DNA from: Mesostigma viride
Lineage: Eukaryota > Streptophyta > Mesostigmatophyceae > Mesostigmatales > Mesostigmataceae
Direction: 5' to 3'
DNA: 64,000 nt
Assembly (NCBI GenBank): GCA_009746045.1
Contig: RPFO01000313.1
Location: forward strand, 60,001 to 124,000
Made by a program: the position numbers and the translations under genes. The notes below the pieces were generated by a model. It saw only the letters and a list, made by a program, of their open reading frames with translations, searched no databases and had not been told where the DNA came from. Shown one piece after another: positions 1,410-49,222 of the stretch. The number at the start of each line of letters is the position of its first letter. The stretch's first letter is position 1.

Positions 1410-1841
1410 CGTGGTTCTCTGAACATAGTTTCTTTATAGTGAGATGGAAGGGTAGCCGCTATAGCTAGGTTATTGGGTTCACGTGACAAACCTTTTGAGG
1501 CCGGTGCGGCCTGATCCGGATCAGTCGTGGCCAAAGCTTTGGCCAGTTTTTTCTTGGCCAGGTGGCAGGAGCTACGTTGAGATATAAACCTGCCACTGTC
1601 TAGGTTTCTTGGCTCATGGCGTAGTGATTAACTAGATCTAGATTCTTTCTCTCACGCAATATGTGACCTAATAGCCCCGGCAGCCTTACGTAAGCTGCCG
1701 GCAATTAGAACGCCACATTGCGTCATTTGTTCAGACGCAACATTTGCGTGGCGAAAAAATGCCGTCCGGGCCAAGGCCGCATGACACGCAAAAAAGGACA
1801 AAAACAAACCCACCTAGCTAAGGTCGGCCTCTTTTCTTTTC
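1410..1841 (+). repeat. Split direct repeat A1 of the DIRS element
   Basis: Matches A2 (6316-6745) from CGTGGTTCTCTGAAC through GGCCTCTTTTCTTTTC, then diverges. It contains the palindromes TGATCCGGATCA (1512-1523), TGGCCAAAGCTTTGGCCA (1528-1545) and a near-palindrome at 1677-1701. It probably holds the promoter and one arm of the recombination substrate. Confidence 0.85.
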
Positions 1842-1928
1842 ACGAGGGCGGCGACAGCAAGCCAGGGGAAACGAACCTCTGGTTTGACGAACCTGTACTG
1901 TCGGAGCCATTTTTGGCCCTGAGCAGCA

Positions 1929-6105: not shown

Positions 6106-6177
6106 TTTGGTTGTTCATTTCTCTGTCATTATGCTAGGTTCTTTGCCCCTGGCATGGATCGCCAGGGAGGGATATAA

Positions 6178-6315
6178 GGGTAAGGCTAGCCTTTGCCAAG
6201 CAATAAGTGTTCCCATGAGCATCGGCGGCCGGGATGTGGCCTGCCTTTTGTATGTGCTCCACTCATTGTTTTAATAAAGAGTCTGGTTACCCTGGAGTTC
6301 CACGGTTAATAGAAT
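6178..6315 (+). repeat. Split direct repeat B1 of the DIRS element
   Basis: 138 bases, identical by eye to B2 (6771-6908), ending in GGTTAATAGAAT. Contains AATAAAG (about 6273), a plausible polyadenylation signal. B1-A2 together mimic the B2-A1 joint expected in a circular intermediate. Confidence 0.85.
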
Positions 6316-6745
6316 CGTGGTTCTCTGAACATAGTTTCTTTATAGTGAGATGGAAGGGTAGCCGCTATAGCTAGGTTATTGGGTTCACGTGACAACCTTT
6401 TGAGGCCGGTGCGGCCTGATCCGGATCAGTCGTGGCCAAAGCTTTGGCCAGTTTTTCTTGGCCAGGTGGCAGGAGCTACGTTGAGATATAAACCTGCCAC
6501 TGTCTAGGTTTCTTGGCTCATGGCGTAGTGATTAACTAGATCTAGATTCTTTCTCTCACGCAATATGTGACCTAATAGCCCCGGCAGCCTTACGTAAGCT
6601 GCCGGCAATTAGAACGCCACATTGCGTCATTTGTTCAGACGCAACATTTGCGTGGCGAAAAAATGCCGTCCGGGCCAAGGCCGCATGACACGCAAAAAAG
6701 GACAAAAACAAACCCACCTAGCTAAGGTCGGCCTCTTTTCTTTTC
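6316..6745 (+). repeat. Split direct repeat A2 of the DIRS element
   Basis: Second copy of the left-end sequence, with one base less in each of two homopolymers than A1. It carries the same three palindromes. After 6745 it runs into a C tract and a ~25-base spacer before B2. Confidence 0.85.
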
Positions 6746-6770
6746 CCCCCCCCCCTCCCTGCGTGTTTGG

Positions 6771-6908
6771 GGGTAAGGCTAGCCTTTGCCAAGCAATAAG
6801 TGTTCCCATGAGCATCGGCGGCCGGGATGTGGCCTGCCTTTTGTATGTGCTCCACTCATTGTTTTAATAAAGAGTCTGGTTACCCTGGAGTTCCACGGTT
6901 AATAGAAT
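6771..6908 (+). repeat. Split direct repeat B2, right end of the DIRS element
   Basis: Copy of B1 ending in AGAAT; the flank continues ACATATGATG. AAT is the last shared triplet. Confidence 0.85.
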
Positions 6909-6935: not shown

Positions 6936-7550
6936 TCCCAGCAAAGCCATAGCACACCTTCCGTTTCGACCGCCATGTCGGCCACTAGTCCGGATAGCTC
7001 AATGTGCACCTGACCTTGACACTAATTGCACAAACAGCCACAATTTTGCAAGCAAGAAGACATGGCTACTTCGGCATTTCATGAAATGTACTTCGTGAAA
7101 TGCACTCCGTGAAATGTACTAAGGAACGTGATTGGCCGGCGTTCGCTCGCCAAATCTCGCAAAATGTACTAAGGCACGTGTTTGGTCTCGCAAAATGTAC
7201 TAAGGAACGTGATTGGCCGGCGTTGATTCTGTAGGGAATTTTAATTGCAGCAAACAGAATCGATTCTGACCAATCACGTTCCTTAGTACATTTTGCGAGA
7301 CAAATCACGTGCCTTAGTACATTTTGCGAGATTTGGCGAGCGAACGCCGGCCAATCACGTTCCTTAGTACATTTCACGGAGTGCATTTCACGAAGTACAT
7401 TTCATGAAATGCCGAGGTAGCCATGTCTTCTTGCTTGCAAAATTGTGGCTGTTTGTGCGATTAGTGTCAAGGTCAGGTGCACATTGAGCTATCCGGACTA
7501 GTGGCCGACATGGCGGTCGAAACGGAAGGTGTGCTATCGCTTTGCTGGGA
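6936..7550. repeat. Long foldback (inverted repeat) of ~290-bp arms
   Basis: 6936-7232 is repeated in inverted orientation at about 7256-7550 with few mismatches. The spacer is ~23 bases (TAGGGAATTTTAATTGCAGC...). Inside each arm the motif TCGCAAAATGTACTAAGG and the box ACGTGATTGGCCGGCG recur. The right arm runs into the ORF at 7510, so the 5' end of that ORF is duplicated, inverted, in the left arm. It may be a foldback element or a hairpin formed by inverted duplication. Confidence 0.8.
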
Positions 7551-29442: not shown

Positions 29443-29626
29443 CGGGGTTAATGCTCCGTGACTCCCCAACGGGAGCACGAGTCTAATTAATTAATTAATT
29501 AATGGTACCAAAGTGGGGATCCATACCTAGGTCCTCAAAATTGACTTAGTTTGGCATGGTGTTTGGCTAATGGTGTTTGGCAGGAATGGTGTTTGGCTAA
29601 TGATAGTAAATAGCACACCTTATCCT

Positions 29627-29868
29627 CCCACCCACCCACCCACCCCCACCCACCCACCCACCACCACCCACCCACCCACCCACCCACCCACCCACCGACC
29701 CACCCACCCACCCACCCACCCACCCACCCACCCACCACCCACCCACCCACCCACCCACCCACCCACCCACCACCCACCCACCACCCCCACCCACCCACCC
29801 ACCACCACCCACCCACCCACCCACCCACCCACCCACCCACCCACCCACCCACCCACCCACCCACCCAT
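29627..29868. repeat. (CCCA)n microsatellite
   Basis: About 240 bases of CCCA units with occasional CCA, giving artefact Pro-Thr-His and Gly-Trp-Val ORFs. Confidence 0.95.
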
Positions 29869-29956
29869 ACAACCACACACAATGCACCAAATTGGTGCAT
29901 TAGGTATTAGGTATTATACCCACACCCACCCGAACACGTGCCCACCCACCCAGGCA

Positions 29957-30220
<264 letters not shown>

Positions 30221-30227
30221 GTCATGC

Positions 30228-30737
30228 CCTCCCTTCCTCCCTCCCTCCTCCCTCCCTCCCTCCCTCCCTCCCTCCCTCCCTCCCTCCCTCCCTCCCTCCC
30301 TCCCTCCCTCCCCCTCCCTCCCTCCCTCCCTCCTCCCTCCCTCCCTCCCTCCCTCCCTCCCTCCCTCCCTCCCTCCCTCCTCCCTCCCTCCCTCCCTCCC
30401 TCCCTCCCTCCCTCCCTCCCTCCCTCCCTCCTCCCTCCCTCCCTCCCTCCCTCCCTCCCTCCCTCCCTCCCTCCCTCCCTCCCTCCTCCCTCCCTCCCTC
30501 CCTCCCTCCCTCCCTCCCTCCCTCCCTCCCTCCCTCCCTCCCTCCTCCCTCCCTCCCTCCCTCCCTCCCTCCCTCCCTCCCTCCCTCCCTCCCTCCCTCC
30601 TCCCTCCCTCCCTCCCTCCCTCCCTCCCTCCCTCCCTCCCTCCCTCCTCCCTCCCTCCCTCCCTCCCTCCCTCCCTCCCTCCTCCCTCCCTCCCTCCCTC
30701 CCTCCCTCCCTCCCTCCCTCCCTCCCTCCCTCCCTCC
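30228..30737. repeat. (CCCT)n microsatellite with CCT phase breaks
   Basis: About 510 bases of CCCT interrupted every ~40-70 bases by a single CCT, so a higher-order repeat may exist. Confidence 0.97.
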
Positions 30738-32058: not shown

Positions 32059-33369
32059 TACCTCACCGTGTCAGATGCTCGACAGCATGCCCCTCTGTTG
32101 CGCGGGCAGGCCTCTGGCCACTCGCGTTCTGCGGCGTCATATGCACACGCCGGGGCGGGGATGCCTCCGCCGCATTTGAGTACCTCGGTTGACCTGGAGA
32201 GCACGGCTGACAGCACCGGCTATTCTCCTCCGGCGTCCCCTGGTGCCTCTGCAGGTCTCCTCCCCGTGTGGGGTTCCCGTGGTGCTGCCTTGTGTGGCGA
32301 CCTTTCTCATGGCAGTAACACCCCTGCTCCCCCTGGTTTCGGGGGCGATGATGTATTGGATGACGCGCTTTCTTCCTGGCCGGATCAACCTGTCACCAAG
32401 GCTGCACGGATCCACGCCCATCACTCACTTGTCGCCGACCTGTGCTTCGCTGCTGCTTTTCATAGACAGCCTGCGTCCGTGCCCTCCTCTCCCGCTGCCG
32501 CCCTTGCCTCGCCGGAATGGCGCACGGCCATGGAGAGTGAGCTGGCCAGCCTCCAGGAGCACCAGGTTTACGAGCTTCTGCATGTGCGTGATCTTCCGCG
32601 CGGTGCCAAGCTCCTGCCCACCAAGTGGGTCTTCGCCCAGAAAGCTGATGGGCGGTGCAAGGCCCGGTTCGTGTGCAAGGGGTTTGCACAGCGCGAGGGC
32701 ATTGATTTCGGTGAGACTTTCGCTCCCACCGTCCGTGCTGCCACCGTGCGCCTGGGCTTGGCTCGTGCTGGCACTGCTGGCCACCCCATCCGGCAGCTGG
32801 ATGTCCGCACCGCGTTCCTCTATGCTGAGTTGGAGGAGGACGTGTATGTCCTTCCCCCCAAGGGCTTTGAGGAGCGCGACCCCACTGGCCAAACGTACCT
32901 CTGGCGCCTCCGGCGGAGCCTCTATGGGCTCAAACAGGCGCCCCGGAACTGGCACCACACGCTCCGGGACTACCTCATCCATGAGACTGGCGCTGTCCAG
33001 AGCACCACGGACACGTGTCTGTTCCTGTATGTTGGTGGTTTTGCCTTCGTCCATGTCGACGATCTCCTGGTCTCCCACTCCTCGGCGGAGTGGCTATCGC
33101 AGTGGACCCAACGGGTGTCCCAGCGCTTCCAGATCACCGAGACGGATGCCCCCTCCCTCTTTCTGGGGGTCTCCCTGGTCCTCGACCCGCCGGCGCGCAC
33201 AGTTTTTCTGCACCAAGGCCCGTACCTGGAGGCCCTCGCTGAGCGCTTTGGGGTCTCCCCACGGGCGGTGAAGACGCCCATCGTCCCCAACACCCCCCGT
33301 GGTGAGGGGGGGCTTCTCAACGCGGACGACACTCGCGTCTACCAAGCGATCACCGGGGCACTCCTGTAT
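32059..33369 (+). pseudogene. Copia C reverse transcriptase
   Basis: After a Ser/Pro linker the RT reads MESELASLQEHQVYEL, TKWVFAQKADG and KARFVCKGFAQREGIDF. Motif A is LDVRTAFLYAELEEDVYV; then SLYGLKQAPRNWH; the catalytic box is FVHVDDLLVS (HVDD for YVDD); then NTPRGEGG and ITGALLYA. The frame is cut at about 33370 by the MITE-like insert; the RNase H side resumes at 34157. Motifs look intact, but the gene cannot be read through. Confidence 0.88.
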
Positions 33370-33537
33370 GCATTACAATTCGTTCAAGTGGCCCGCCGGA
33401 GCGGCTGTACAATTTTTCCCAGTGAGCGCGCTGCCAAGTGTACTTGTGGGCAAATTTTTAGGTGCCCCGTCACTTCGAGGTACTAAAAATTAGGCTACGG
33501 TACGAATTCAGCGAATTTCAGCGAATTTTCAGTCGAA

Positions 33538-34910: not shown

Positions 34911-35558
34911 AGTTAGCATTTTGGGCAACCAATATGCTAAGTGGATGCAGTTTGGAAAGACCTTTCCAACGCCGTGCTGACCGCCTGAAACAGACAAGGG
35001 ACGAGAAAGATATGAGGTCCCGAAGTCCTAGCCGTCCGTGGCCGACTAGGGTACAGTCCTCTGGTATAGTGGACAGGACACGTGGCAGGCCGTGCCTGCG
35101 CAGGCTTAGCCTGACTATCACGTGACTGTGGTCCACGTAGGCCAGAGGAGCAGCAGCCTGTGGCTGGTGGAATACAGGACTGGCACAGGTCTGCAAGGAT
35201 ACTAGGCCTTGCAGGCTTGTGACAGGTCCTGTACTTCCTAGGTTGCAGAGTCTAGGCAAATCCAGTTCGTCCTGGCTCTGCACTGATGCCAGTGGACGTT
35301 GTGGATTTGCTTGCATGCCTGCACGTGCCTCGTCACGCCGATGGGAACGAGGAACAACGCAAAGGATATAGCTTGGTCATGGGGGATGACCAGCTATCTT
35401 GGCAAGCACGAACCGAGGCTCCCACATTGGACGTGGAACCGCTCACCGTGGTCGTGGCTTGGTGCACGGGTTAAAAGGTTGCTGCCTTTGCAACTTTGGC
35501 TCATCCCGTTGTGTGGCGCGAGAGACCAGGAACTCACAGTTCTGGCTGTTCGCTAACT
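34911..35558 (+). repeat. 5' LTR of element A
   Basis: Starts AGTTAGCATTTTGGGC, ends TGTTCGCTAACT. Contains TTAAAAGG (about 35471), TATA-like. The 33-base leader begins CGTACTATTGC, with no TGG-type primer site. Confidence 0.9.
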
Positions 35559-35591
35559 CGTACTATTGCATTTCTGTTGTGCAAGGTTTTC

Positions 35592-36740
35592 ATGTCGGCC
35601 GAGGCTCGGGTCGAGACACCTGAGTCATCCCCCGGGCACGAAGCAGTTCCCGAGTTGCCAGCGCGCGAGAACGCGTTTTTCCCCTATTCCCACCCATCCA
35701 ACGCTTCTACGTTTGTGCAGGCCGCCTACGTTGCGAGGGGTCTTGCGGAAGGAGGTTGGGTTGCTGTGTTTGGAAACGCAGCAGGGCCGTCGGCAAACGA
35801 CCCAGTGGTGATGAGGATAAGGGCGACGACGTCGCCAGGGGAGACGGGTCGGGTCTGCACGGAGCGGCTTGTCGCTATTCGCGACGAAATAGCTTCGTTG
35901 ATCTACAGTTTGGAGGTCGCGTACCAGGGCGGGCACGTCACCATTCAGGCGCTGGACTTAGCGCGTGAAACGCTGGGCCAGCTGGTGGCCATTTGTTTAG
36001 GTGGTACCAGATTGTATAACCACTGGGTGGCGACAAGCTCGCTGGGGGAGGGGACCGACGCGTCACATATTATACGGGACGCGCAGACGCGTGAAGCCGA
36101 CAGTCCGTGGGATTCGGCTGAAGTGGTGGCTCAGACGTGTGAGCACCTGGTCAATATCTTGACCCAAGAGGCACGTGGTCACGCCGACCACTGGGTAATC
36201 ACAACACGGCCAGCCGGCATTTGGTCGACCTTGGATACACCGAGGTTGCAAAGCAGGCCGGGGGCGTGTGGGCCAACGGTGACCGTCATCACCGGTCGGG
36301 ACGTCACCGACGAGGATTTTCACAGCGAGTTCGTGGATCGCCCCACGGGCATCATAGCTCGTTCGTCACAGCAGATTGACGAAGGGGACGGCACCAACGA
36401 AGGCTACTCAGCTCGGCGTAGGGCGGAGTTGCATATCCCGTTTGAGCCGGAGCACGACTTCGCTGAGATTGGTCGGGGGTCACGGAACGACAGGCGGGGT
36501 GGTGGCAGTCGGTGGGTCAGGAACCTGCAGTGGTATCGCCGTGGTAGTGCGCCTAGGCTGCCGGTGGAGCAGACACCAGCCGGGAGGCCGGTGAGCCGGG
36601 TATTAGGTCCTTACAACGCGGAGGAGGTCCGCTCAGTTCCGCGCGTGGGGACACCGGTGGCGCGCACAGCGCAGGAGCGTGAGGAGGAGGCCATAGCTGA
36701 GGAACGGCCAGCGGCTTCCTCAGGCAGCACCAGCGCTTGA
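35592..36740 (+). CDS. Element A ORF1, unknown function
   Basis: 382 codons from the first ATG after the LTR. Mixed helical middle (about residues 40-140: FVQAAYVARGLAEGGWVAVFG, ERLVAIRDEIASLIYSLEVAY), Arg-rich near 300-330, acidic/Ser tail. No zinc knuckle or enzyme motif. It takes the same place as the 236-codon ORF0 of element B. It could be a capsid-like or accessory protein. Stop at 36738 lies just before the Gag start in another frame. Confidence 0.6.
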   Translation: MSAEARVETPESSPGHEAVPELPARENAFFPYSHPSNASTFVQAAYVARGLAEGGWVAVFGNAAGPSANDPVVMRIRATTSPGETGRVCTERLVAIRDEIASLIYSLEVAYQGGHVTIQALDLARETLGQLVAICLGGTRLYNHWVATSSLGEGTDASHIIRDAQTREADSPWDSAEVVAQTCEHLVNILTQEARGHADHWVITTRPAGIWSTLDTPRLQSRPGACGPTVTVITGRDVTDEDFHSEFVDRPTGIIARSSQQIDEGDGTNEGYSARRRAELHIPFEPEHDFAEIGRGSRNDRRGGGSRWVRNLQWYRRGSAPRLPVEQTPAGRPVSRVLGPYNAEEVRSVPRVGTPVARTAQEREEEAIAEERPAASSGSTSA

Positions 36741-36793
36741 GCCAGTTTTGCCTTGTCTGTCGCCTGTTTTGTTTTGTCATCCCACTGTATATA

Positions 36794-38149
36794 ATGCCTC
36801 GTGGCAAACCGGGAGACGGCGGCAAGGGCGAAATGGAGGCACCGGCTGGAGCAAGCCAGGAGCCTCGGCAAGGCAAGGAGCAGCTGGTGGGAGAGGCGAT
36901 CCCAGCCAGCGACGGCGATGGGGGAAAGAGACCAGGCGGCAAGAGACGGCATGAAGACGCGGTGGAGGAGGCGCGCAAGGTGCGGGCAACAGGGCCAACG
37001 GACGCGATAACGGTGGCAAATGGGCAACCTGCCGTGGAGAAGCGTAAGAGGGACCCCTCCGCTGACGGCAATGGTAAGAGGCCTCACGTGGATGTGCTCT
37101 CCCCTGTGCCTGCTGGACCAAGTGGTGTTGTTGTTGTGACACCCGCTGTGGTGGAGCCAGTGAAGGCGCTGCCAGGGTCGAGACCTCACATGAGTGCTGT
37201 CACTGTTATGAATGGTCAAAAGCCTCTTAACCCACCACTAGCACAGGAAGCTTTGGACAAGTGGCTTGAGGACATGGAGCTTGTTGTGTGCTCCGTGGAC
37301 CCCACTGTCAACCTAGTGCAAGTGTTTCACTCGTCCACGTGCAACAGGGACTCATCAGAGCGTGTCAGGGAGAAGGCTAGGACTGCTGTCAAGGATAAGC
37401 TAACCTGGGCACAGTTCCTGGAAGGGTTGAGGGAGGAGTTCTCTGACAAAGTTCTCAACCTCACCAACTATTACAAGCATCAGTATGACACCTTTGAGAT
37501 AGTGGGCCCTGTAGCAGAGGAATGGGCTAGGCTCAACCGTATCAGAGACAAGGGGGCCAAGTATGGCTTCATGGTCACAGATAGGGCCTTGGCAGACTAT
37601 TTCCTGGACCGTATGGGTTTGAGTGTGGATGGGAGAAACGGTGCCCGCATGTTTCTTAACCAGACTGATGGCTCCTTGCGTGCTCTGGAGCTTGTAATCC
37701 TCAGCATAAGGAAGCCAGATCCTGCCTGCAAAGCTATCCAGTCCCATGGCAGCAATGCCACCTCCGCTGTGCAGGGCCAAGGTGATGTCCCCGGGTACCC
37801 AGCCCGTGATGGGGCAAGGCCCAACAAGCGTAAGCGCTTCAGGCGCCAGAGGCAGGGGGCTCAGGGTGGCAAGGGTGCAGGTTCCCAAGGAGGGGTTGGG
37901 AGCCAGCAAGCTGGTGGTCAGCAGGGTAAGGGTGGCCAAGGGCAAGGCAAGGGCCAAGCTCAAGGCAACCAGGGCAAGCAGGGTGGACAGTCTCAGGGAG
38001 GCCAGGGGAAGCCTGGCAAGGGTGGGGCTGGGTCTGGGAAGAAGGGTGGGCCATGCTTTGTGTGTGGCAAGGAAGGTCACTGGCGTCGTGAGTGTCCTGA
38101 CAGGAAGGCCAAGCCTGCTGGGGCAGGGGGCCAGTCTGGGCAGCAGTGA
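36794..38149 (+). CDS. Element A Gag with CCHC zinc knuckle
   Basis: 451 codons from ATG (MPRGKPGDGG). N-terminus Lys/Gly-rich and probably disordered to about residue 130. A helical capsid-like core follows (about 150-310: LDKWLEDMELVVCSVDP, VREKARTAVKDKLTWAQFLEGLREEFSD, EEWARLNRIRDKG). Then a Gln-Gly-Lys repeat tail and one knuckle, CFVCGKEGHWRREC. It ends CAG-CAG-TGA; the next codons CTA GCA TCA stay open in the same frame into the integrase ORF, so readthrough of UGA-CUA would make Gag-Pol. Confidence 0.8.
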   Translation: MPRGKPGDGGKGEMEAPAGASQEPRQGKEQLVGEAIPASDGDGGKRPGGKRRHEDAVEEARKVRATGPTDAITVANGQPAVEKRKRDPSADGNGKRPHVDVLSPVPAGPSGVVVVTPAVVEPVKALPGSRPHMSAVTVMNGQKPLNPPLAQEALDKWLEDMELVVCSVDPTVNLVQVFHSSTCNRDSSERVREKARTAVKDKLTWAQFLEGLREEFSDKVLNLTNYYKHQYDTFEIVGPVAEEWARLNRIRDKGAKYGFMVTDRALADYFLDRMGLSVDGRNGARMFLNQTDGSLRALELVILSIRKPDPACKAIQSHGSNATSAVQGQGDVPGYPARDGARPNKRKRFRRQRQGAQGGKGAGSQGGVGSQQAGGQQGKGGQGQGKGQAQGNQGKQGGQSQGGQGKPGKGGAGSGKKGGPCFVCGKEGHWRRECPDRKAKPAGAGGQSGQQ

Positions 38150-39756
38150 CTAGCATCATCCCCTGTAAATAGTCAATCACCCCTTGGGGAAGGTGTGCTG
38201 GATATACATAAGGATGGGGGTGTGCCCCTTGGGCAGCACCAAGGGTGTAAAGATGTTGTTCTTCCACTGGATTGCAATAACAATGCTGCAGCTGAATTCC
38301 CTATGCCTCATGCAGGTGGTGGGTCTCCAGCAGGTGCTGGCCTGGAGGGCCAAGGGACCTTGCTGGAAGGGCCTGGAGCGGTCCAGGGTGCAGGACCTGA
38401 CTTGGGGCGTCAGGACGGCCTGCAGGGAAGCCCTGGAACCTCAGGAGTGGATCATGTGTCCCCACACACGGTTCAGACGTCTCGCCAGGTCAGTACTGAC
38501 AGAGTGCTGAGCTATGCTGAGGCTGGCCATAAGTTGCATCACATGTTTGGGCATTCTGGGCAGGCAGCAATGTTTGCTTGGAAGCTAGGTAGGGAGCCTT
38601 TATGGGAGGCCTGCCAGGCTGCTGCTGAGAACTGTGGTTGCCAGGAGAATGCTGTTCACCCACCTCAGTCCCATGCTAGGGAGCCTGCTAGGGAGCGTGG
38701 CGACATCCAGATGGATATCCAGCATATCAGGGGCTTGTATATATTGGTGGGGGTGGACAGGTTCAGTAGATACAGGCTGATAGACGTTCTGCCTGGTATG
38801 CAGGAGCACCACTTGTTGTTGGGTATGAAGGCCCTGATCCCAGGCTTTGGGGTGTGCAAGAGTGTGCAGGCAGACTTGCAGTTTGACTGTTTGCTCAAGC
38901 ATCAGGACCAGCTGCCTTGTAAGCTGGTAGTAGTCCCCAGGGAGAGTCATGGGCAGCAAGGGGCTGTAGAGAGATCCATACGTGAAGTGAAGACAGTGGT
39001 GCTAGCAGCAGAGTCAGTGCCACTTGTGGCATCTGCCTTAGAGAGGGCAGCCTGGTGTAAGGGGATAGAAGAGCAGCTGAACCACAGGGTTAACTATTAC
39101 TTTGATGGTGTGGCTGTCTCTCCCCTGGCCCTGCAGTATAGCTTGTTGCCTGAGAACGTGGTGCAGGCCAGTCTGAGGAAGGCAGACAGGTTGTTTGCCC
39201 AGCTGAGACGTAAGGACAAGAACTGGAATGTGCTGAGGCCTCAGGTGGGGCTGAAGGTCAGGATGTGGAAGGAACCATCTATTCCAGGCAAGCGGGGGAA
39301 GTGGCAGGATGGGGTTGTCACTCGTGTGGAGGAAGCTAACAGATCTTGCCTGGTGGCTTTGGAAAAGGATCCAAGGCACGTGTACAGGTTGTCCTGGGCT
39401 CATGTCAAGGAGAGAAGGCCACATGCAATCTGGCCTGCAGACGGGCCAGGCCCTCCCAGCTGGGTTGAGGAGCCAGGCCAGAGCCAGGCAGCAGCAGCTA
39501 ACAATCCTCCTGTGGTGGATGATGGTCTGTCCCTACTGGAAGATGACGAGCAGGAGGCTGCTGAAGCAACTGTCACAAGGCCAGAGGGGACGGGGCAGCC
39601 ACCTAAGGCCCGGGGGCCTCTCATGGCGGACGTCATCCGAGCACTCATGCGCAGCAAACATGATCCCAAGATGCCCTCACCAAGCTGGAGGAGAAGGCGG
39701 AGAGGCAGTACCCCCTGCTCCGTGGGCTCATGGGCCCCTTACACGGGCGGCCATAG
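38150..39756 (+). CDS. Element A Pol remnant: integrase, with RNase H scrap
   Basis: Open in the Gag frame from the codon after the Gag UGA; the first codon usually called as start (38195) is GTG, so independent initiation is unlikely. Zinc motif HKLHHMFGH...CGC; catalytic Asp in QMDIQHIRG, Asp in VQADLQFD, Glu in GQQGAVERSIREVK; then a C-terminal domain (GKWQDGVVTRVEEANRSCLVAL). Near 39670 the sequence jumps: SKHDPK is followed out of frame by DALTKLEEKAERQY, homologous to the RNase H end of B (DALTKLVQKAAVQY), ending TAG at 39754. Protease, RT and most RNase H are deleted. In the integrase frame the ORF ends at 39802. Confidence 0.8.
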
Positions 39757-39861
39757 AGACCAGGCCTTGCTTCAGCTTGGGTGTCCCCAGTGGGCTGCTT
39801 GACCAAAGTACCAAGTGGTGACTGGTGCTTACTGGTTGACAGCCGGTCCTTCAGGGTTAGG

Positions 39862-40478
39862 AGTTGTGAGGGTAAGAATGCCACGAATTCCGCCATGGTT
39901 CTTGCAGGAAGTTGCCTTTATTAATAATCAGGAAACACAGACGTAAGTCACGTCACTTCCAAGACTGCACGCAGCACAGACGACAGGGTCGCAGTGCCAA
40001 GAGAACGTGCACGCAAGAACTAGCGTCCCGGTGTGACCAAGTCACTCATATAGCTTACTAGGGACGCGTCCAAGTATTCAGCTGCACTGTCACAGCTGAA
40101 CTGTCAATCAATTGATTACACAGACTCTGGCACGCCTTTGGCGCGCAGATCTATCAATTGTCCATACGGCTAGTCCTGTGGACCTATCCGTACACTAGTC
40201 AGCATCAATTGTCTCATAGGTCCTGGCGCGCTACAGTGCGCCTACCTATCAATTGACCATCAAGTCCTGTACAAGTCCTGTCAACGTCCTGCGGACTATC
40301 AAAGTGACACTTGTACATCCTGTGTCCGTACGCGCCCACAGTGGCGCGCCGGGTACTGTCGGCACAGCCTAGGAAACGTCATAACTTTTACGTTCCTTAA
40401 CCAAATGAGGCGTTCAAGGTGCCGTTGGAAAGAGCGTAACAATCTCTATCCATCTAACGTAAATCCTTTACGTTAACT
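39862..40478 (-). repeat. 3' LTR of element B
   Basis: Preceded in element sense by the purine-rich AAAGAAAAGAAGGGATTGG (RC of 40479-40498), nearly the same polypurine tract as A's AAAAGAAGAAAGGGTTGG (48557-48574). Confidence 0.9.
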
Positions 40479-41398
40479 CCAATCCCTTCTTTTCTTTAGG
40501 GGTCACATCCCCTGCCAGGGACCCTTGAAGTAGCTTGAAATGTCCTTCACTCCAGCTTGAAGCTTGAACAGATGTCTTTAATGGCCAATGCCATTCCCCC
40601 AGCCCTTTCTTTTAAGGAACTGGAAAAGAAACAGATCTGCCACAGGGAAAACCATTTCATGAGAAATGGAGAAAACCTATGGAAGTGGCATTACAGAGTA
40701 CCACCAGATATTAGAAGCACACAAAATTAAATACATACAGGTTAATTCTATGAGGTCTTCTCCAGGAATTAATCCCATCACCTCGGTAGAGCCTCCAGTA
40801 CAATGACCTTCTGGCGGTGAGTTACATTAATCCCAGATACTAATCCCATAAAACCCAGTACATATTCAATATAAGTACAATAAATCCATGACAATTAAAA
40901 TACCACTTGACAAAGTAAGGCGTATTACAATAGTTTGCCTGTCATTCTCTCAACAGGGGTCTATTGGCGCCCGTCTTACGGCGCCCGTCTACTTGCCAGA
41001 TGGTAAACTGCCACAGCAAACAAATGACAAAATGAAACACATAGGCAACAATTAAATCCTGCCCTGGGGAACTAGGGAAGTCTGAACAGGCAAACACCTG
41101 AACAGGCCAGCTTGTAGAAACATAATACCAGGGAATCGAACCCCGCCCTATAAACCCCAGAATAAAGGTTCCCAGACCATTGTGAGAAGTATGTACATGG
41201 TCTGTAATGGACCTGTCAACCTTGTGTAGTCAACAGCATGAACCCCAGCCAAAGCCTGGCTGTATCCTGATTAAGATCAGAGTGAGTGTACCATGGTCCA
41301 TGAGCCTTAGTACAGACTAAAATACAGGTATTATGCCAGTCACAATGCTGACACTACCACACAATCTGCTCTCCAATGCCCTATAACCAGACACCAGC
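40479..41398 (-). other. 3' untranslated region of element B
   Basis: No ORF. Contains a T-arm-like stem-loop on the minus strand (GGGGTTCGATTCCC, 41131-41144) and a duplicated GGCGCCCGTC motif (about 40968-40993), which has a counterpart in A's 3' region (about 48205-48225). Confidence 0.6.
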
Positions 41399-44300
41399 TT
41401 AGACAGCTTGCTGAGATGGGTCCATCAGAGACTGAAGAACCTTGTATTGCACTGCTGCCTTCTGCACTAGCTTGGTCAAAGCATCAGCAGGATTGTCAAC
41501 CCCAGGGATATGCTCAATATTGGCCAAGGAGGACAACTCCTTAAGAAGGAGATAATCCAAGTCCCTACTTCTGGCCATCTGCCTGTGCACAAACTGCACC
41601 ATCCCCATGGAGTCTGTTTTTAGAAGAGTGGTAACCTGAAGTGGCCAAGGAGTGTTAGAAGTCATCTGATGAAGCAACTCCTTCAGATAAAGGCTTGTGT
41701 GAATGCCTTCACAAATAGCCCTGCATTCTGCCACATCACTGCTGACAGCCACCCGTTTGTGCAGGCGACTAAACCAGCTCACCAAACTCCCCAGGCCTTC
41801 CTGTCTGAGCACAAAGAGCCCTGCAGCCCTGCCCCTGACCTTGGAGACCTGCCTGCTGTCCATTGAGCTATCCACATACAGCTCCATGCAAATGGGTTGT
41901 GATAAATCCACTGCAGACAACAGAATGCCAGATGAAGCCCTGACCTGATCAGCCACCTTGGCAGACCCTAGCTCCACCAGCATGTCATCAGGCAACCTGG
42001 CTATGACCATAAGGTCTGGCCTGGAAATGCCTGCCACCCAAGCAACCATGCCCCTCACCATGGGACACAGTGCCTGTGTGATGGTTGGAGGAAGCTTGCT
42101 AATGAGGGTCTCTTGATAGTCATTGCCCCCCACCAGCAGCATACGCCACTCCCCTCCCTTCTTCACCAGTGTGGCCTCCATGCCCACAAACAGCAGAGGC
42201 TCATTCTCCACCTGCCATTGCTCCCTACCCAGAGGAAACTTGGACTTAATGATGGAGATCAGCTCCTTAAGCCACGACGTGGGAGCTATCAGATGTAGGT
42301 CATCCCCGTGCAGCGAAGCATACACTGGCAGGCCTTCCCATTGCCCCAGAAACAGACAGGGGTCTACAGGAGAGACCTTCAAGTTGCAATGCTCCTTCAG
42401 GAAACGGTTGAGAGTCTCCCTCCAGATTATTGGACTTGACCTCAGGCCCTCCAGGCCCTTGAGGATTTTAAGGAACTCCGTGTGGATGTCCCTTTTCCAT
42501 ACAGCAGGCACCCTAACATAGAAAGGCGTCTTGCCCTCCCACTTTTCCTGTGCCACATCTGCATCACCCTCCAGAAATGCCCTCTTGAAGTCTATCACCA
42601 CTGAGCCATAGTCCAAGCCCTTGTTGAGAAGGCCTAGAAAGACACACAGCAGCAGCCTCCAAGTATCATGCAGCATGCCAGGGGTATACAACTCCTCAGC
42701 AGTGCACTCACCAGTACCCTTGAACTCATTCAGCACTGGCCTGACATGTGGTACCTTGACCCCGTCCACCTCCTTCATCTTGATGACAAACTTGAGCTTG
42801 AGTAGACGTCGTGCAGGAGGCAGGTCATTGACAGGTTCCACGCATTTCTTGGAGATCCAGTCCTCCCCAGATTTAATCAGACCCAGTGTGACCTGGGGAC
42901 ACATAATGGGAGAGGACATGAGCTTCACCAGGCCTTGGTAGTTGATAGGGCTGTGTCCAGCAAGTGAGTGAGGACCAATGCCCAAACTGCTTGGATGACT
43001 AGCAGCTGGCAGTATGAGGTCATCAACCAAGGGCTCCTGCCCCTGGCACACTTGCACACGCTTAACCGTCCTGGTTACTGCACGTGATAGGTGAGTGGTC
43101 CTGAAATTAATCAGTGGGACCTGACCAGCCCCTTCCTTAGTCAGGAGAGAGGACGTGATCACTACCCCATCCTGGCATAGGAAATTCTGCCCCAGAAGAG
43201 CAGGTCCTTGATAGCCCTCCAAGACACAAAAAGCAGTGTCCTGTCCAAGGATAGGAATGAATACCTCACCCAGTACCTTCACGTGTACCCCGCCACTGAA
43301 GTCAGACACAAACTGATAGCTGGGTTCAGACATGCTGTACCCTGCTGCAGCCCTGGTCCCAATAATGGAGACCTGAGAATTAGTGTCTACCTCTAAGGCA
43401 GTGTCCAGCCCCAGATTGCCATGCCACCTGAGCTTGGCTACCTTGGGCTGCTTCTTGGCCCTTTGTAGAGCCCCAATCAATCCAGCCAAACTTGTCCCCC
43501 TGGGCTTGGTTAGTGCCTTGGGCTTGACAGTTGACTCCCCAGCTGTTGACCTTGCAGCCTGTTCAACAAGTACCTCTGCAACCTGGCCAGGGCTGACAGA
43601 TTCCCCTGCAACAGATGTGGTCGTTGCGTCAGTGATGTCACCTGGGACCTGAAAATCCTGCAGATCCTGTGAGCCTTGTGCCTGACTGCCCTCATTCATC
43701 AGGTTAGGCTTGACATATGACCAACTCAGCCGGTGTACATGCTTTGGTTCGTCCTCCATGCTGACCAAGCATGCGTGGCTAGCTTCATCAACCTGGGTAA
43801 CCACCCCAGGACTCCAGCTACCACGTTTGCCATAAAGGCTAGGTTCCTTCCAAGCTAGGACCTTCTGACCCACTTGTGGCTCCAGCATCTTCCAACCCCG
43901 GTCCTTCTCCCTCAGCTTGGCAAAGGTGACATGTGCAGCATGTTTCCAGCCCTCCAGCACATGTGGTGGGCACAGGCCATGATATAGACCCATTGGGCTG
44001 ACAGCAACTCCATCATAGTAGAAGTTAACCCTGCTGTTCAGCTGCTGCTCCACGTTCCTCAGCCATGCACTCCTGACAAGTGCAGGTGCAGACAAGGGTA
44101 CCCAGTCTTCAGAGATGATCAATTTCTTGACCTCCTGGATTGCCCTCTCGATAGCACCCTGCTGCCCATGAGCCTCCCTAGGTGTAACCAGCAACTCAGG
44201 AAGGGTAGGATCACCCTTGAGATGCTGAAACTGCATGTCCACCTGGATCCTTGTGGTAGGAAACTTGGCTCTTACATTCTGCAGGGCAGCCAGCAAGTAC

Positions 44301-44884
44301 CTGTTCTTCATAGAAGGTAAATGCTCCAGCACCTTGTATTTCGTGTACCTGTCCACGCACACCAACAGTTGCATGCCCCTGATGTGTTGGATATCACACT
44401 GCAGATCACCAATGCTCTGAGGTAGAGCTTTGGCATGTGATTTCCTGGGCTTGTTGGAGGACAACTGGCACTTACACCGTGAGGCAGCTTGCTGACACGC
44501 CTTAAGAAGGGGTGCCCTGCCCATACGGAAGGCAAAGTTGTTTGACAGAGAAGTGGCATGCCCAAACATGTTGTGGATTCGGGCACCCAACTCCTGGTAC
44601 ACAGAGGAAGCAGTCCCTGGCACAGTCAGGACTGTGCTGTCAGGTTGTCCAGCATCACCATGCTGACTTCCATCCTGTTCTGACTCAGAGCCTGAGTCAC
44701 CCTGCTCATGCCCAACACCTGGACCGCCAGCAGGGACCACATGCATACCACCAGAGGCCTTCACACCCCTCTGTGGTTGTACATTGGTTTCTCTCAAAAT
44801 GAGAGGTCCACCCTCGTGCCCAGCACGAGGATGCATAGGGTCAGACATACTTACAGCTGCATCAGCTGTCAAGGACGTCTTCAT
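41399..44884 (-). CDS. Element B Pol: integrase, protease-like, RT, RNase H
   Basis: 1161 codons from the first ATG; the frame is open upstream to the Gag UGA at 45026. Order and residues: integrase zinc motif H104-x4-H109...C137-x-C139; catalytic D164 (CDIQHI), D216 (QVDMQF), E246 (GAIERAI); integrase C-terminal fold to about 395 (GSWSPGVVTQVDEA). Protease-like segment about 485-575: LEVDTNSQVSIIG (D500; D-T-N for D-S/T-G) and GPALLGQNFL. RT about 690-910: motif A VVIDFKRAFLEGD (D765), active box SLHGDDLHL (D861, D862). RNase H about 1000-1135: D1005 in YVDSSMD, E1053, D1091 in KTDSMGM, D1134 region in NPADALTKL. Integrase before protease is unlike copia or gypsy. Confidence 0.88.
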   Translation of the reverse strand: MKTSLTADAAVSMSDPMHPRAGHEGGPLILRETNVQPQRGVKASGGMHVVPAGGPGVGHEQGDSGSESEQDGSQHGDAGQPDSTVLTVPGTASSVYQELGARIHNMFGHATSLSNNFAFRMGRAPLLKACQQAASRCKCQLSSNKPRKSHAKALPQSIGDLQCDIQHIRGMQLLVCVDRYTKYKVLEHLPSMKNRYLLAALQNVRAKFPTTRIQVDMQFQHLKGDPTLPELLVTPREAHGQQGAIERAIQEVKKLIISEDWVPLSAPALVRSAWLRNVEQQLNSRVNFYYDGVAVSPMGLYHGLCPPHVLEGWKHAAHVTFAKLREKDRGWKMLEPQVGQKVLAWKEPSLYGKRGSWSPGVVTQVDEASHACLVSMEDEPKHVHRLSWSYVKPNLMNEGSQAQGSQDLQDFQVPGDITDATTTSVAGESVSPGQVAEVLVEQAARSTAGESTVKPKALTKPRGTSLAGLIGALQRAKKQPKVAKLRWHGNLGLDTALEVDTNSQVSIIGTRAAAGYSMSEPSYQFVSDFSGGVHVKVLGEVFIPILGQDTAFCVLEGYQGPALLGQNFLCQDGVVITSSLLTKEGAGQVPLINFRTTHLSRAVTRTVKRVQVCQGQEPLVDDLILPAASHPSSLGIGPHSLAGHSPINYQGLVKLMSSPIMCPQVTLGLIKSGEDWISKKCVEPVNDLPPARRLLKLKFVIKMKEVDGVKVPHVRPVLNEFKGTGECTAEELYTPGMLHDTWRLLLCVFLGLLNKGLDYGSVVIDFKRAFLEGDADVAQEKWEGKTPFYVRVPAVWKRDIHTEFLKILKGLEGLRSSPIIWRETLNRFLKEHCNLKVSPVDPCLFLGQWEGLPVYASLHGDDLHLIAPTSWLKELISIIKSKFPLGREQWQVENEPLLFVGMEATLVKKGGEWRMLLVGGNDYQETLISKLPPTITQALCPMVRGMVAWVAGISRPDLMVIARLPDDMLVELGSAKVADQVRASSGILLSAVDLSQPICMELYVDSSMDSRQVSKVRGRAAGLFVLRQEGLGSLVSWFSRLHKRVAVSSDVAECRAICEGIHTSLYLKELLHQMTSNTPWPLQVTTLLKTDSMGMVQFVHRQMARSRDLDYLLLKELSSLANIEHIPGVDNPADALTKLVQKAAVQYKVLQSLMDPSQQAV

Positions 44885-45025
44885 AGGAACCTGTACCTCT
44901 CCAGGTGACCTGGGGCCACACTGAACCTGGAGATCACCCTCTTGTTGCCCAGATATAAAATCTGCATTGGAGCACCTGGCCTCCCCCTTGGGTGAATTAA
45001 GGTGTGTAGGGGTTGCCTCAGACAG

Positions 45026-46141
45026 TCACTGCTCCTTGTTGTCTTCTTGCTGACTGCCCTTTGAAGGCTGGCCTGCCTGGGACTTGTTGTTGTTCTTCTT
45101 GTTGTTGTTGTTATTCTTGTTGCTGCCCTGGCCCTGGGACTTCTTGAAGCTGGGACACTCCTTCTTGATGTGCCCCCACCCCTTGCACAGGTAGCATTGT
45201 ATCTTGGACTTGCCCTGGCCACTGCCCCCATTGTCAGACGCGTTGCCCTGCTTGGGCTGACCACCCACCCGCCTGAACACCGACTTGGAGTGTGACCTCC
45301 TGTCAGAATCAGGTGAATGATCTCCCTTGCGCTTGTGATGGTTGCCCCTACGCCCTCCTTGGCTTCGGTCAGCCTCAGACGTCTTGGAGCCACCCTGGGT
45401 ACGCCCGCCTGCCTGGGTAGCCTTCACTGCTGGCACTCCACCCTCAAACAGCTCCTCTGCCTCGAGAGCTTGTTTAATGATGACCTTGTAGGCCTTCAGG
45501 GTAGAGTGTGGGGCACACATGACTTTTAAGGAGCCACGTGTCGCCTTATCCAGCCCAGAAACCTTGAGCCAGTTGGTTAGGGCTATGTTATCAGCGACAT
45601 TAAAGCCGTGAGCCCTGCCCTCCTCAACCATCTTACAATAGTTGAGAAAGTTCTGGATCAGGTCCCCCTTGACCTCCCACCCTTGATACTTGTCCTGCCA
45701 ATGGATGCCGACCTTCTTGCGTTGGTCCTCCAGCAGCTCCTTCAGCTCAGCCACGTACAGTGCCCAGGCCTTATTGGCCTTTTTGCACTCCCTGGTTAGG
45801 TCCTTAATCTGGTCAGTACACTTGCCAAAAGTGCTACTGCCTATCCAGATTTGATAGTAATTTGTACCACCGTACAAGCTAGGGAACCCTTCCAATCCCT
45901 CCACAAACTCTTCAGCCTGCTTAGGCTTGGAGTCTGAGGTTACAGGCTGCAACTGATTGACAATTAAAAGACCCTGTGTGGTAAGATCAAAGCCATGAAT
46001 AGCTTGTGCATTATTATTATTGTGAGGAAGGTTGGTAATCTCTCCGGTAAGCCCCACGTCATCTACGTGAGCGGTTCCACTACCAGCACCCCCATTATTA
46101 TTCCCACTGGCTGGACCCTTGCTACGGCGTCCCTCAGCCAT
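45026..46141 (-). CDS. Element B Gag with CCHC zinc knuckle
   Basis: 371 codons from ATG (MAEGRRSKGP). N-terminus Asn/Gly-rich; a helical core about 75-240 (EEFVEGLEGFPSLYGG, ELKELLEDQRKKVGIHW, IQNFLNYCKMVEEGRAHGFN, NWLKVSGLDKATRGSLK) that looks like a retroelement capsid; a basic region about 250-310; knuckle CYLCKGWGHIKKEC; Asn/Lys/Gln tail. The stop is CAG-TGA-CTG and the same frame stays open for 47 more codons to the Pol ATG, so Gag-Pol by readthrough is likely. Confidence 0.85.
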   Translation of the reverse strand: MAEGRRSKGPASGNNNGGAGSGTAHVDDVGLTGEITNLPHNNNNAQAIHGFDLTTQGLLIVNQLQPVTSDSKPKQAEEFVEGLEGFPSLYGGTNYYQIWIGSSTFGKCTDQIKDLTRECKKANKAWALYVAELKELLEDQRKKVGIHWQDKYQGWEVKGDLIQNFLNYCKMVEEGRAHGFNVADNIALTNWLKVSGLDKATRGSLKVMCAPHSTLKAYKVIIKQALEAEELFEGGVPAVKATQAGGRTQGGSKTSEADRSQGGRRGNHHKRKGDHSPDSDRRSHSKSVFRRVGGQPKQGNASDNGGSGQGKSKIQCYLCKGWGHIKKECPSFKKSQGQGSNKNNNNNKKNNNKSQAGQPSKGSQQEDNKEQ

Positions 46142-46311
46142 CCTGCACTACCAGCTATTCAAAGAACACCTTAACAAAGCAGCAGAAAATATGTACAAAA
46201 TTTTTGTGTCGCCACTGCCGCCTGCGCCGGTGTCGCTGCCGCCCCGCGAATTGCCGCTGAAAATTCGACAAAAAAAATGTCGACGAGTACTGCAGAAGAA
46301 AATTAGGCCGA

Positions 46312-47022
46312 CTAGTAGTCAAGGCCCCTGAAGTCGCAGTACGTGTATACGAACTCACGATCCTCCATATCCAGCTCCGGACCTGCACCGGTATGAATTA
46401 AAACCGGCGTGCTCCCCGCCGCGTAAGTTGCGACGCGCCGACGCGCGACGAGGCGCAGAGGATGTGTAAAGATCGTCAATAATTCCCACCCCGCGGGAAT
46501 CCACTCTCGCACAGAGGCGAGAAATGCCACCAGGTTAATTAAAACCTGGCGCTCGCGACTGCGTACGCCGCGAGTGAGCAGCGATAACAGCGCGAGATCC
46601 TGAAACAAATTTGTCGACACCGCCGGCGCGCCCCCCGTGCGTAGCGATGCCCAGTTTTGCAGGTTTCTCTGGTAACCGGTGAGTGAAGAGAGGACGTTGT
46701 CCAACTCCTCAATGGCAGTCGTGACTTCGGTCACCGACCGCAAACCTCCCCGCACCTGGACCGTAAATGTCGATAAAATGTTTCGAATCTGGTCCAACAG
46801 GTTGCGGATTGCCGGCACCAGTGCTGGCAAATCGGGGTCCTCGGGGTTATCCCCGAGCAATGCGTGAGCTGCACGCTGCTGACGATGAAGCTCGTCGAGC
46901 GAGACCGTTACTTCGTCGAGCAATTGCTGCCACGACGGCACCGTCGGTCTTGACGAAGAACCAGCCGGCGGAGCGGCTATTTCCTCATCGTCCGGAATCC
47001 GAAATTCTTCCGAATTTGGCAT
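46312..47022 (-). CDS. Element B ORF0, unknown function
   Basis: 236 codons; the ATG is 25 bases after the 5' LTR. Acidic N-terminus, helical middle with a heptad-like pattern (SWQQLLDEVTVSLDELHRQQ, AIEELDNVLSSLTGYQRNLQ), a hydrophobic/basic C-terminal part (QVLINLVAFLASVREWI, RLVARRRV). No known domain. Same place as A's ORF1, so a feature of the lineage. Ends 170 bases before Gag starts. Confidence 0.65.
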   Translation of the reverse strand: MPNSEEFRIPDDEEIAAPPAGSSSRPTVPSWQQLLDEVTVSLDELHRQQRAAHALLGDNPEDPDLPALVPAIRNLLDQIRNILSTFTVQVRGGLRSVTEVTTAIEELDNVLSSLTGYQRNLQNWASLRTGGAPAVSTNLFQDLALLSLLTRGVRSRERQVLINLVAFLASVREWIPAGWELLTIFTHPLRLVARRRVATYAAGSTPVLIHTGAGPELDMEDREFVYTYCDFRGLDY

Positions 47023-47046
47023 CTTTTTGACAGAGCGTGTAATACG

Positions 47047-47663
47047 AGTTGTGAGGGTAAGAATGCCACGAATTCCGCCATGGTTCTTGCAGGAAGTTGC
47101 CTTTATTAATAATCAGGAAACACAGACGTAAGTCACGTCACTTCCAAGACTGCACGCAGCACAGACGACAGGGTCGCAGTGCCAAGAGAACGTGCACGCA
47201 AGAACTAGCGTCCCGGTGTGACCAAGTCACTCATATAGCTTACTAGGGACGCGTCCAAGTATTCAGCTGCACTGTCACAGCTGAACTGTCAATCAATTGA
47301 TTACACAGACTCTGGCACGCCTTTGGCGCGCAGATCTATCAATTGTCCATACGGCTAGTCCTGTGGACCTATCCGTACACTAGTCAGCATCAATTGTCTC
47401 ATAGGTCCTGGCGCGCTACAGTGCGCCTACCTATCAATTGACCATCAAGTCCTGTACAAGTCCTGTCAACGTCCTGCGGACTATCAAAGTGACACTTGTA
47501 CATCCTGTGTCCGTACGCGCCCACAGTGGCGCGCCGGGTACTGTCGGCACAGCCTAGGAAACGTCATAACTTTTACGTTCCTTAACCAAATGAGGCGTTC
47601 AAGGTGCCGTTGGAAAGAGCGTAACAATCTCTATCCATCTAACGTAAATCCTTTACGTTAACT
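47047..47663 (-). repeat. 5' LTR of element B
   Basis: Identical by eye to 39862-40478. The leader after it reads CGTATTACACGCTCTGTC, with no TGG primer site; A's leader also starts CGTA. Confidence 0.9.
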
Positions 47664-47668
47664 TTAGG

Positions 47669-48574
47669 TACACCCTCCTGGACAGGAGTTGGTGTGGAAT
47701 GTCACTCCTACCAGCTGAGAATCTTGCCTGGCCCTCCCCATGGGGTTCAGAAGAGTCGCCAGGACTTAAGTCGACGCCTTTGGCCTCAAACAGTTAGGCC
47801 ATGCAAGGGCAACCCGAATGCTGGTTCTTACAGGTTGCTGTATATATGTTCTCTAGTGCCTGTTTCCAACCTGTTGCTAATAAAGAACCTGGTTGTGTGA
47901 CCATGTGGAACATGGTTGCCAGGGGGCCACATTCTGGGTTATATATTGCTTGAATAAAATATAATCATGTCATGTCATTCTCATGTTGTTCTCATGGTTG
48001 TAATGTTTCTCTTGTGTAAAGTTCCAGGTCACCTATAAACCTGGAGGTTGGGGTGGGGTTCAATTCCCCAGCAGAGCCACAGCCTGGCATGAGTGATTCC
48101 TGGGCTTAACACCCAGTGAAGACATGGGCTCCCCAATGAGGCAGTATTTGTACAGGTGCTACCTGAGTCTCTTTGAGCATAAAAGGGAAAGGCTGGCCAA
48201 GGCGGGCGCCATAAGAACGGGCGCCTGTGATAACTGTGAAAGATCAGGAACTCACAATAGTACGTTCTTGGCATCCTGTAATCCCAGCCATTGGACTAGG
48301 TAATGTGCCTTGACTTTAATCTAGCACCAAGTTCCCAAGGAAAGGTTGGGAGCTGACCAAGGGGTCAGGGGATAACCTGGGGTGACCTCTGATTCACTGG
48401 CCAGTATGCCTAGCCTGGTCCAAGGGCAGATAAGTTGTTACCCAAAGGAGGCAGGAACCTGGGCCCTCAAAGGTCTGATCAACCTCAAGGGACCAAGCGG
48501 TCTGTGGCTGAGTGGGCACAAGCAAGGTTAGGCTTGTTTCAAGCTGGCCCAGCTCCAAAAGAAGAAAGGGTTGG
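47669..48574 (+). other. 3' untranslated region of element A
   Basis: Continues A after B's insertion. No ORF. It holds a T-arm-like hairpin (TGGGGTTCAATTCCCCA, 48054-48070) and an AATAAAG-type site (about 47878), and ends in the polypurine tract before the 3' LTR. Confidence 0.6.
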
Positions 48575-49222
48575 AGTTAGCATTTTGGGCAACCAATATG
48601 CTAAGTGGATGCAGTTTGGAAAGACCTTTCCAACGCCGTGCTGACCGCCTGAAACAGACAAGGGACGAGAAAGATATGAGGTCCCGAAGTCCTAGCCGTC
48701 CGTGGCCGACTAGGGTACAGTCCTCTGGTATAGTGGACAGGACACGTGGCAGGCCGTGCCTGCGCAGGCTTAGCCTGACTATCACGTGACTGTGGTCCAC
48801 GTGGGCCAGAGGAGCAGCAGCCTGTGGCTGGTGGAATACAGGACTGGCACAGGTCTGCAAGGATACTAGGCCTTGCAGGCTTGTGACAGGTCCTGTACTT
48901 CCTAGGTTGCAGAGTCTAGGCAAATCCAGTTCGTCCTGGCTCTGCACTGATGCCAGTGGACGTTGTGGATTTGCTTGCATGCCTGCACGTGCCTCGTCAC
49001 GCCGATGGGAACGAGGAACAACGCAAAGGATATAGCTTGGTCATGGGGGATGACCAGCTATCTTGGCAAGCACGAACCGAGGCTCCCACATTGGACGTGG
49101 AACCGCTCACCGTGGTCGTGGCTTGGTGCACGGGTTAAAAGGTTGCTGCCTTTGCAACTTTGGCTCATCCCGTTGTGTGGCGCGAGAGACCAGGAACTCA
49201 CAGTTCTGGCTGTTCGCTAACT
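48575..49222 (+). repeat. 3' LTR of element A
   Basis: 648 bp, one substitution against the 5' LTR (CCACGTGGGCC for CCACGTAGGCC). Followed by GTGTG duplication and the rest of copia C. Confidence 0.92.

Follow-up and report, generated by a model that had tools for sequence, protein, structure and literature searches.

Can a copia-like retrotransposon carry its protease behind its integrase? The question is raised by a 64,000-nucleotide stretch of Mesostigma viride DNA (assembly GCA_009746045.1, contig RPFO01000313.1, positions 60,001 to 124,000 of the forward strand; hereafter 'the window'), in which an element that we call B encodes, in one Pol frame, an integrase (INT), a segment resembling a protease (PR), a reverse transcriptase (RT) and an RNase H (RH), in this order. 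An original prediction, made from the letters alone, had placed a long terminal repeat (LTR) retrotransposon with this order, from an undescribed lineage near copia, at positions 41399 to 44884. These positions do hold Pol, on the minus strand and as a single frame of 1161 amino acids, but the element is larger (39862–47663) and the open frame of Pol begins at 45025. In our view B is likely to be a copia-like LTR retrotransposon, young and intact in appearance, from a lineage in which Pol is ordered INT, protease, RT, RNase H, and the sequences compared here suggest that this is probably an undescribed copia-like lineage whose protease has been displaced and perhaps replaced. The frames, the order in four families, the in-frame UGA between Gag and Pol, the LTR ends, the target duplications, the empty site and the identical copies were observed directly.

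Element B and its copies

B is a young, intact-looking LTR retrotransposon, with its LTRs, ORF0, Gag and Pol on the minus strand. Its 5′ LTR (47047–47663) and 3′ LTR (39862–40478) measure 617 base pairs (bp) each, have the termini AGTT..AACT and show no mismatch to each other; a polypurine-tract-like AAAGAAAAGAAGGGATTGG (40479–40497) stands ahead of the 3′ LTR, and the target site duplication CCTAA flanks the element upstream (47664–47668) and downstream (39857–39861). Identical direct LTRs, a polypurine-tract-like stretch, a target duplication and gag plus pol, by which LTR retrotransposons are recognized, are thus all present. B lies nested in a second LTR element, A, which has a similar polypurine-tract-like stretch, and the empty site of B is found in family E (L054; see below), where TTAGG is directly followed by TACACCC.

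Insertion sites were examined in 11 copies of B, the window copy included, and both ends could be read in seven; perfect 5-bp duplications flank five of these seven (CCTAA, CGTAC, CGCGG, CAAAC and GGTAT). The ends TG..CA, usual though not universal among LTR elements, are present neither in B (five copies with duplications) nor in A, both of which have AGTT..AACT. The stretch 3′ of the 5′ LTR, where the primer site is expected (47029–47046), has no TGG, the complement of the tRNA CCA end, directly behind the LTR, and no tRNA primer could be assigned to it; the 16-mer at the LTR junction (the complement of its first 16 bases) occurs at 333 places in the genome (169 + 164), matches that are indistinguishable from copies of B itself. 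In two copies on C998 (L043–L046) the 3′ LTR is followed by CATATTACAACT / CGTATTACAACT, which resemble the stretch behind the 5′ LTR; these two copies have no matching duplication and are perhaps tandem or recombined elements.

Between the LTRs, B encodes ORF0 (46312–47022, 236 amino acids), for which a Pfam scan gave no match better than an expectation value (E) of 0.11, followed by a Gag of 371 amino acids (45026–46141) with a CCHC zinc knuckle near residues 315–331 (Pfam E 0.0052, under the cut-off) and by Pol, whose open frame after the UGA covers 41399–45025 and whose 1161 residues are counted from the first ATG at 44884. An identical Pol protein is encoded at no fewer than 40 places in the genome, the window included (40 scored of 10,070 candidates). 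Among 30 fetched copies of B, again with that of the window, 28 are identical over 3483 nucleotides and the others differ by one and three, and the UGA between Gag and Pol is kept in all 30. B is apparently a recently active, many-copy element, and the idea of a single odd copy is rejected by these numbers.

Order and affinities of the Pol domains

A protein search yielded a sole full-length relative of B, P0001 (51% identity over 91% of Pol; one of 7,996 scored), and two further families were found in the genome. An alignment search of 5.8 billion proteins gave no match, P0001 included, and carries no weight as a negative. Family D (L053) has at least 38 copies, which are 63–64% identical to P0001, and family E has at least 101 RT matches, many of them in shorter frames; in the copies read, intact Pol frames comprise 1196 (D) and 1190 (E) amino acids. 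In an alignment of the four families, the rows of D, E and P0001 are 49–50% identical to B, and the order INT, protease-like segment, RT, RNase H is the same in all four.

The integrase comes first (Pol residues 99–393; 43706–44590). It combines an H-x4-H..C-x-C motif with the candidate catalytic residues D164, D216 and E246, and H104, H109, C137, C139 and these three acidic residues are invariant in the four families. The match of B to the Pfam family rve is weak (E 0.036), the best Protein Data Bank (PDB) matches of an INT profile are retroviral integrases (best E 0.013), and the C-terminal part of INT gave only faint Tudor/Agenet-like matches; a single-sequence search of Pol against the PDB returned none. 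The copia-like RT (residues 686–935; 42080–42829) contains an HGDD box (residues 859–862; 42299–42310) and is followed by RNase H (residues 995–1145; 41450–41902), typed by its motifs, in which D1005, E1053, D1091 and D1134, presumably the catalytic residues, are likewise invariant. Between INT and RT lies the retropepsin-like segment (residues 490–580; 43145–43417) with the motif D500-T-N ... GPALLGQNFL at residues 500–569, of which D500, T501, N502, Q504, V505, S506 (DTN(S/A)QVS) and L564–L569 (LGQNFL) are invariant in all four families. The predicted position of INT at the head of the frame and of RT with HGDD and then RNase H downstream of the segment was thereby borne out; for the protease predicted between INT and RT, position and order are kept in B, D, E and P0001, while its identity as a retropepsin is only probable. 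The order INT-PR-RT-RH was not found described in the open-licence PMC literature and, within the literature searched, appears to be undescribed for copia-like elements.

By descent, the central segment is probably a clan-AA protease, as three comparisons suggest. The profile search that had been proposed for it gave matches to the Pfam family gag-asp_proteas over most of the model for the pieces from P0001 (E 0.0021), E (0.044) and D (0.13), all under the cut-off of 28.2 bits; the P0001 piece also matched Asp_protease_2 (E 0.11), and for the D piece DUF6898 (E 0.12) ranked just above gag-asp_proteas. A four-family profile compared with the PDB gave only three matches at E ≤ 10, all of them protease sequences (E 0.4–0.96), one named HIV-1 Protease and two named 'protease, tethered dimer', which we take to be HIV-1 entries as well. 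Compared by hhalign with 13 host gypsy proteases (12 from among 150 listed places, several near-identical, and that of the gypsy element in the window), the profile scored 18.70, which none of 200 column shuffles attained (highest 18.63); in the alignment DTN falls on the gypsy DTG, and LGQNFL matches the place of the LG-D-W motif. When the Pol alignment was cut into 57 slices and each was scored against these proteases, the six best all overlapped the segment (columns 582–651). Since D500, T501, N502, Q504–S506 and LGQNFL are invariant at about 50% overall identity, a constrained active-site region is suggested, and we infer that the segment may be an active protease. No protease match was obtained in Gag, in ORF0 or upstream of INT by Pfam or hhalign, although the hhalign comparison with single proteases was insensitive and missed the central segment too; a protease in Gag or ORF0, which the original prediction had named as evidence against itself, is rejected with this limit.

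The affinity of the lineage to copia elements emerges from RT. RVT_2, under its cut-off, is the only RT family of Pfam that the lineage matched, and its RNase H motifs look copia-like, as we read them. RVT_1 has no match in B, D, E or P0001, as compared with E 1.1e-23 for the gypsy element of the window, nor do gag_pre-integrs and SH3_retrovirus match any of the four. For comparison, copia C, an element of usual order in the same window, matches RVT_2 (1.2e-43), SH3_retrovirus (5.9e-18), rve (2.8e-10), Pol_BBD (5.9e-10) and gag_pre-integrs (3.2e-6, just under its cut-off).

A protein search with RT-RH gave six matches at E ≤ 10 among 7,998 scored. P0002, P0003 and P0005 show 58–60% identity, P0004 is 98% identical over 46% of the query, and P0006 (E 4.1e-4) and P0007 (E 8.1) are remote copia-type proteins. 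P0003, labelled jgi/Mesvir1, has a 100% match in the assembly across all 414 residues. P0005, labelled Prorocentrum lima, has an RT that is 84% identical to family E, and its presence in that dataset reflects either contamination or horizontal transfer, which are indistinguishable here. The queries A1 and A2 found no relatives in viral contigs, and A2 found none in genome contigs; the viral-contig search, being also blank for ordinary host copia RT, yielded no references.

An RT tree was built from 13 rows, namely six of the lineage, copia C, five of ten fetched host copia loci and P0006; the truncated window gypsy, three near-identical host copia rows and two further host loci were excluded. 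In this tree, which has no outgroup and in which the long row of P0006 is placed with uncertainty, the lineage forms one clade (support 100/99) whose branch is 3.79 changes per column long, and its RTs are 19–25% identical to the remaining rows. The claim of a separate lineage is well supported within this small reference set: the predicted undescribed lineage near copia finds backing in an RT clade well apart from the small number of copia references available. The HGDD box had been taken as a further sign of novelty. It is present in all five lineage relatives from the protein search (P0001–P0005) and in D and E, but in this genome HVDD replaces YVDD in the RT of ordinary copia elements, as seen in ten of ten fetched host loci (L055–L064, several near-identical) and in copia C (32068–33486). 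Since host copia reads HVDD, only the Gly of HGDD is special to the lineage; as a sign of novelty the box is weakened, and as a lineage mark on its own it was discarded.

A 2009 survey (PMC2774666) states that INT lies downstream of PR in every known Ty1/Copia genome, and that copia proteases keep LLS with very few exceptions, ILG predominating elsewhere. Provided that the segment is the protease, all four families depart from both rules, with the segment behind INT and with (I/L)LG; copia C has LLS. The lineage shares with Ty1/Copia an INT upstream of RT-RH and, at sub-threshold level, RVT_2 as the only RT family matched, and differs from it by the place of the protease-like segment, by (I/L)LG instead of LLS, by the ends AGTT..AACT, by the missing gag_pre-integrs and SH3_retrovirus matches and by an RT only 20–25% identical to that of host copia. 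Because the RVT_2 matches are below cut-off, the RT clade is distant, and order and (I/L)LG run against the rules of the survey, we speak of a copia-like lineage without assigning it to Copia. Nor does it follow the gypsy arrangement with INT downstream of RH. Gmr1-like Ty3/Gypsy elements likewise have INT upstream of RT, but in Gmr1, according to the same survey (PMC2774666), INT is downstream of PR, and B has no RVT_1 match; with the segment as PR, the order of the lineage is not the PR-INT-RT-RH of this group.

Competing explanations

Several results weigh against a young copia-like element with a protease between INT and RT. The flanks are unmatched in two of the seven B copies with both ends readable, one end is unreadable in four of the 11 copies (in one masked as N), and neither termini nor LTRs of family D were found within the stretches fetched. 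The RVT_2 match is sub-threshold in B (E 3.9e-6; 27.1 bits, the cut-off being 31.6 bits), in E (1.6e-4) and in P0001 (0.014), and D has none. For the segment itself, none of the protease matches attains a curated cut-off, the piece from B matches no Pfam family at all, and Pfam scans of full-length D and E gave no protease hit. The probability reported by hhalign for the match to the gypsy proteases is 2.5% (E 0.018), the score exceeds the best shuffle by only 0.07, the next-best slice belongs to RNase H (column 1121; 18.25), and when a single gypsy or copia protease served as the hhalign target, an insensitive comparison, no score rose above those of shuffles. An AlphaFold model of residues 470–610 from two sequences has a mean predicted local distance difference test (pLDDT) value of 48. 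No retropepsin is among the fold matches shown for this low-pLDDT model (50 of 212 and 50 of 252), and those shown, unrelated beta proteins and chymotrypsin-like proteases, carry no weight either way; the structure check proposed earlier supported neither a retropepsin nor another fold. Finally, the triplet is DTN in all four families, not DTG or DSG, for which reason protease activity of the segment is unproven.

One could explain the last point by a clan-AA fold that has lost activity and serves as a spacer or dimerization part, with cleavage by a host protease or none. We consider this unlikely: it would accommodate both the DTN triplet and the lack of a Pfam match for B's piece, but the invariance of the DTN and LGQNFL regions at some 50% identity suggests constraint, and no other protease was seen in the element, one of the searches being insensitive. 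The low hhalign probability, the pLDDT of 48 and the fact that every protease match is sub-threshold would also be expected if B were an ordinary copia, with a protease upstream of INT too diverged to be detected and a DTN segment that resembles a retropepsin by chance. Such an arrangement is improbable, since residues 1–98 ahead of INT can neither be aligned between B and P0001 nor matched to any Pfam family, it is the central segment that is overlapped by the slices scoring best against host gypsy proteases, and copia C, also in the window, is readily recognized by its RVT_2 match and usual set of domains in usual order. Nesting, misassembly or a local rearrangement in one copy might be blamed for the order on account of the insertion of B within A, yet the many copies of B, D and E on many contigs, together with P0001, which comes from another source, refute such an artefact and leave it practically no chance. 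A displaced clan-AA protease in a copia-like element thus continues to be the explanation that we prefer.

Expression, host element and significance

Gag and Pol share one frame, split in B by the single UGA at 45026–45028 (CAG UGA CUG), where D has CUU and E and A have CUA behind the UGA; UGA-CUA is a known readthrough context. With this one-frame, single UGA-CU arrangement common to B, D and E, readthrough is the probable route to Pol. Frame changes interrupt the upstream Gag frame in those copies of D and E that were read, which therefore need not be intact in Gag, and the folds downstream of the UGA differ, with no shared structure by eye. A single UGA between Gag and Pol is also known from Tca2, a copia-type element. 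The gag-UGA-pol junction of Tca2, an element of Candida albicans, is reported to have flanking sequences that failed to promote readthrough in yeast (PMC2194720), for which reason readthrough in B is something we infer.

Most likely, the LTR drives one RNA, from which ribosomes would translate Gag and, upon occasional readthrough of UGA-CU, a Gag-INT-PR-RT-RH polyprotein. The central clan-AA protease would dimerize in the particle and set free INT and RT-RH, its neighbours on either side; the latter would copy the element RNA, and the DDE integrase would insert the AGTT..AACT-ended DNA via a 5-bp staggered cut. The active protease, the readthrough, the cleavage sites and the primer are the presumed parts of this scheme. 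The N-terminal LLS-type protease of copia would probably have been lost, an (I/L)LG-type protease now standing between INT and RT. Going one step further, one may tentatively see here a lineage of superfamily rank beside Ty1/Copia, marked by the loss of the LLS protease, the gain of an ILG-type protease with a working DTN site, UGA-CU readthrough and an integrase for AGTT..AACT ends; we give this slightly less than an even chance. An LTR lineage with ends other than TG..CA, Troyka, has been proposed as a superfamily of its own (PMC12440569). According to that report, Troyka has CG..CG ends and 3-bp duplications and is placed by its author near Metaviridae/Gypsy and retroviruses; neither these ends nor such duplications are found in B or A.

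Element A, on the plus strand (34911–49222), is flanked on both sides by a GTGTG duplication. Its LTRs (5′, 34911–35558; 3′, 48575–49222) are 648 bp long with AGTT..AACT ends and differ by one mismatch; its Gag (36737–38149) ends in CAG UGA CUA in frame with Pol, of which the integrase part is retained (38150–39802). A is 97.6% identical to family E over 2786 bp and, relative to it, has PR-RT-RH deleted at 39669/39670, lacking about positions 2785–4742 of L054, i.e., PR, RT and most of RH, with a few bases repeated at the join. Judged by this comparison, A is a non-autonomous deletion derivative of family E that kept Gag and INT, and its mobility would call for the enzymes of an intact relative. 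ORF0 precedes Gag in A (35496–36740) as in B, the two sequences being almost unrelated (at best a local match of 66 residues with E 0.001, obtained with composition correction switched off); that of A, too, has no Pfam match better than 0.11.

Elsewhere in the window, positions 1548–6908 hold a tyrosine-recombinase gene (Phage_integrase, E 6.5e-7 in 2851–6105) between split direct repeats (1548–1841/6452–6745 and 6178–6315/6771–6908), a layout that we take to be DIRS/Ngaro/PAT-like; an RT match at E ≤ 1 was absent in the two frames scanned. A near-perfect inverted repeat (6936–7550) has arms of 297 nucleotides, 97% identical and 21 nucleotides apart, and a repeat array with mostly 8-bp spacing (29588–30262) separates the INT part from the RT part of copia C, which is interrupted.

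Where INT stands with respect to PR and RT is used in separating families of LTR elements. Annotation that relies on Pfam cut-offs and on TG..CA ends is likely to overlook or misassign the present lineage, to judge by its sub-threshold matches. If our reading of B is true, a many-copy and apparently active element that breaks the copia rule would show that Pol can accommodate a moved, or a replaced, protease, and the lineage would provide a test bed for the replacement of Gly by Asn in the retropepsin triplet.

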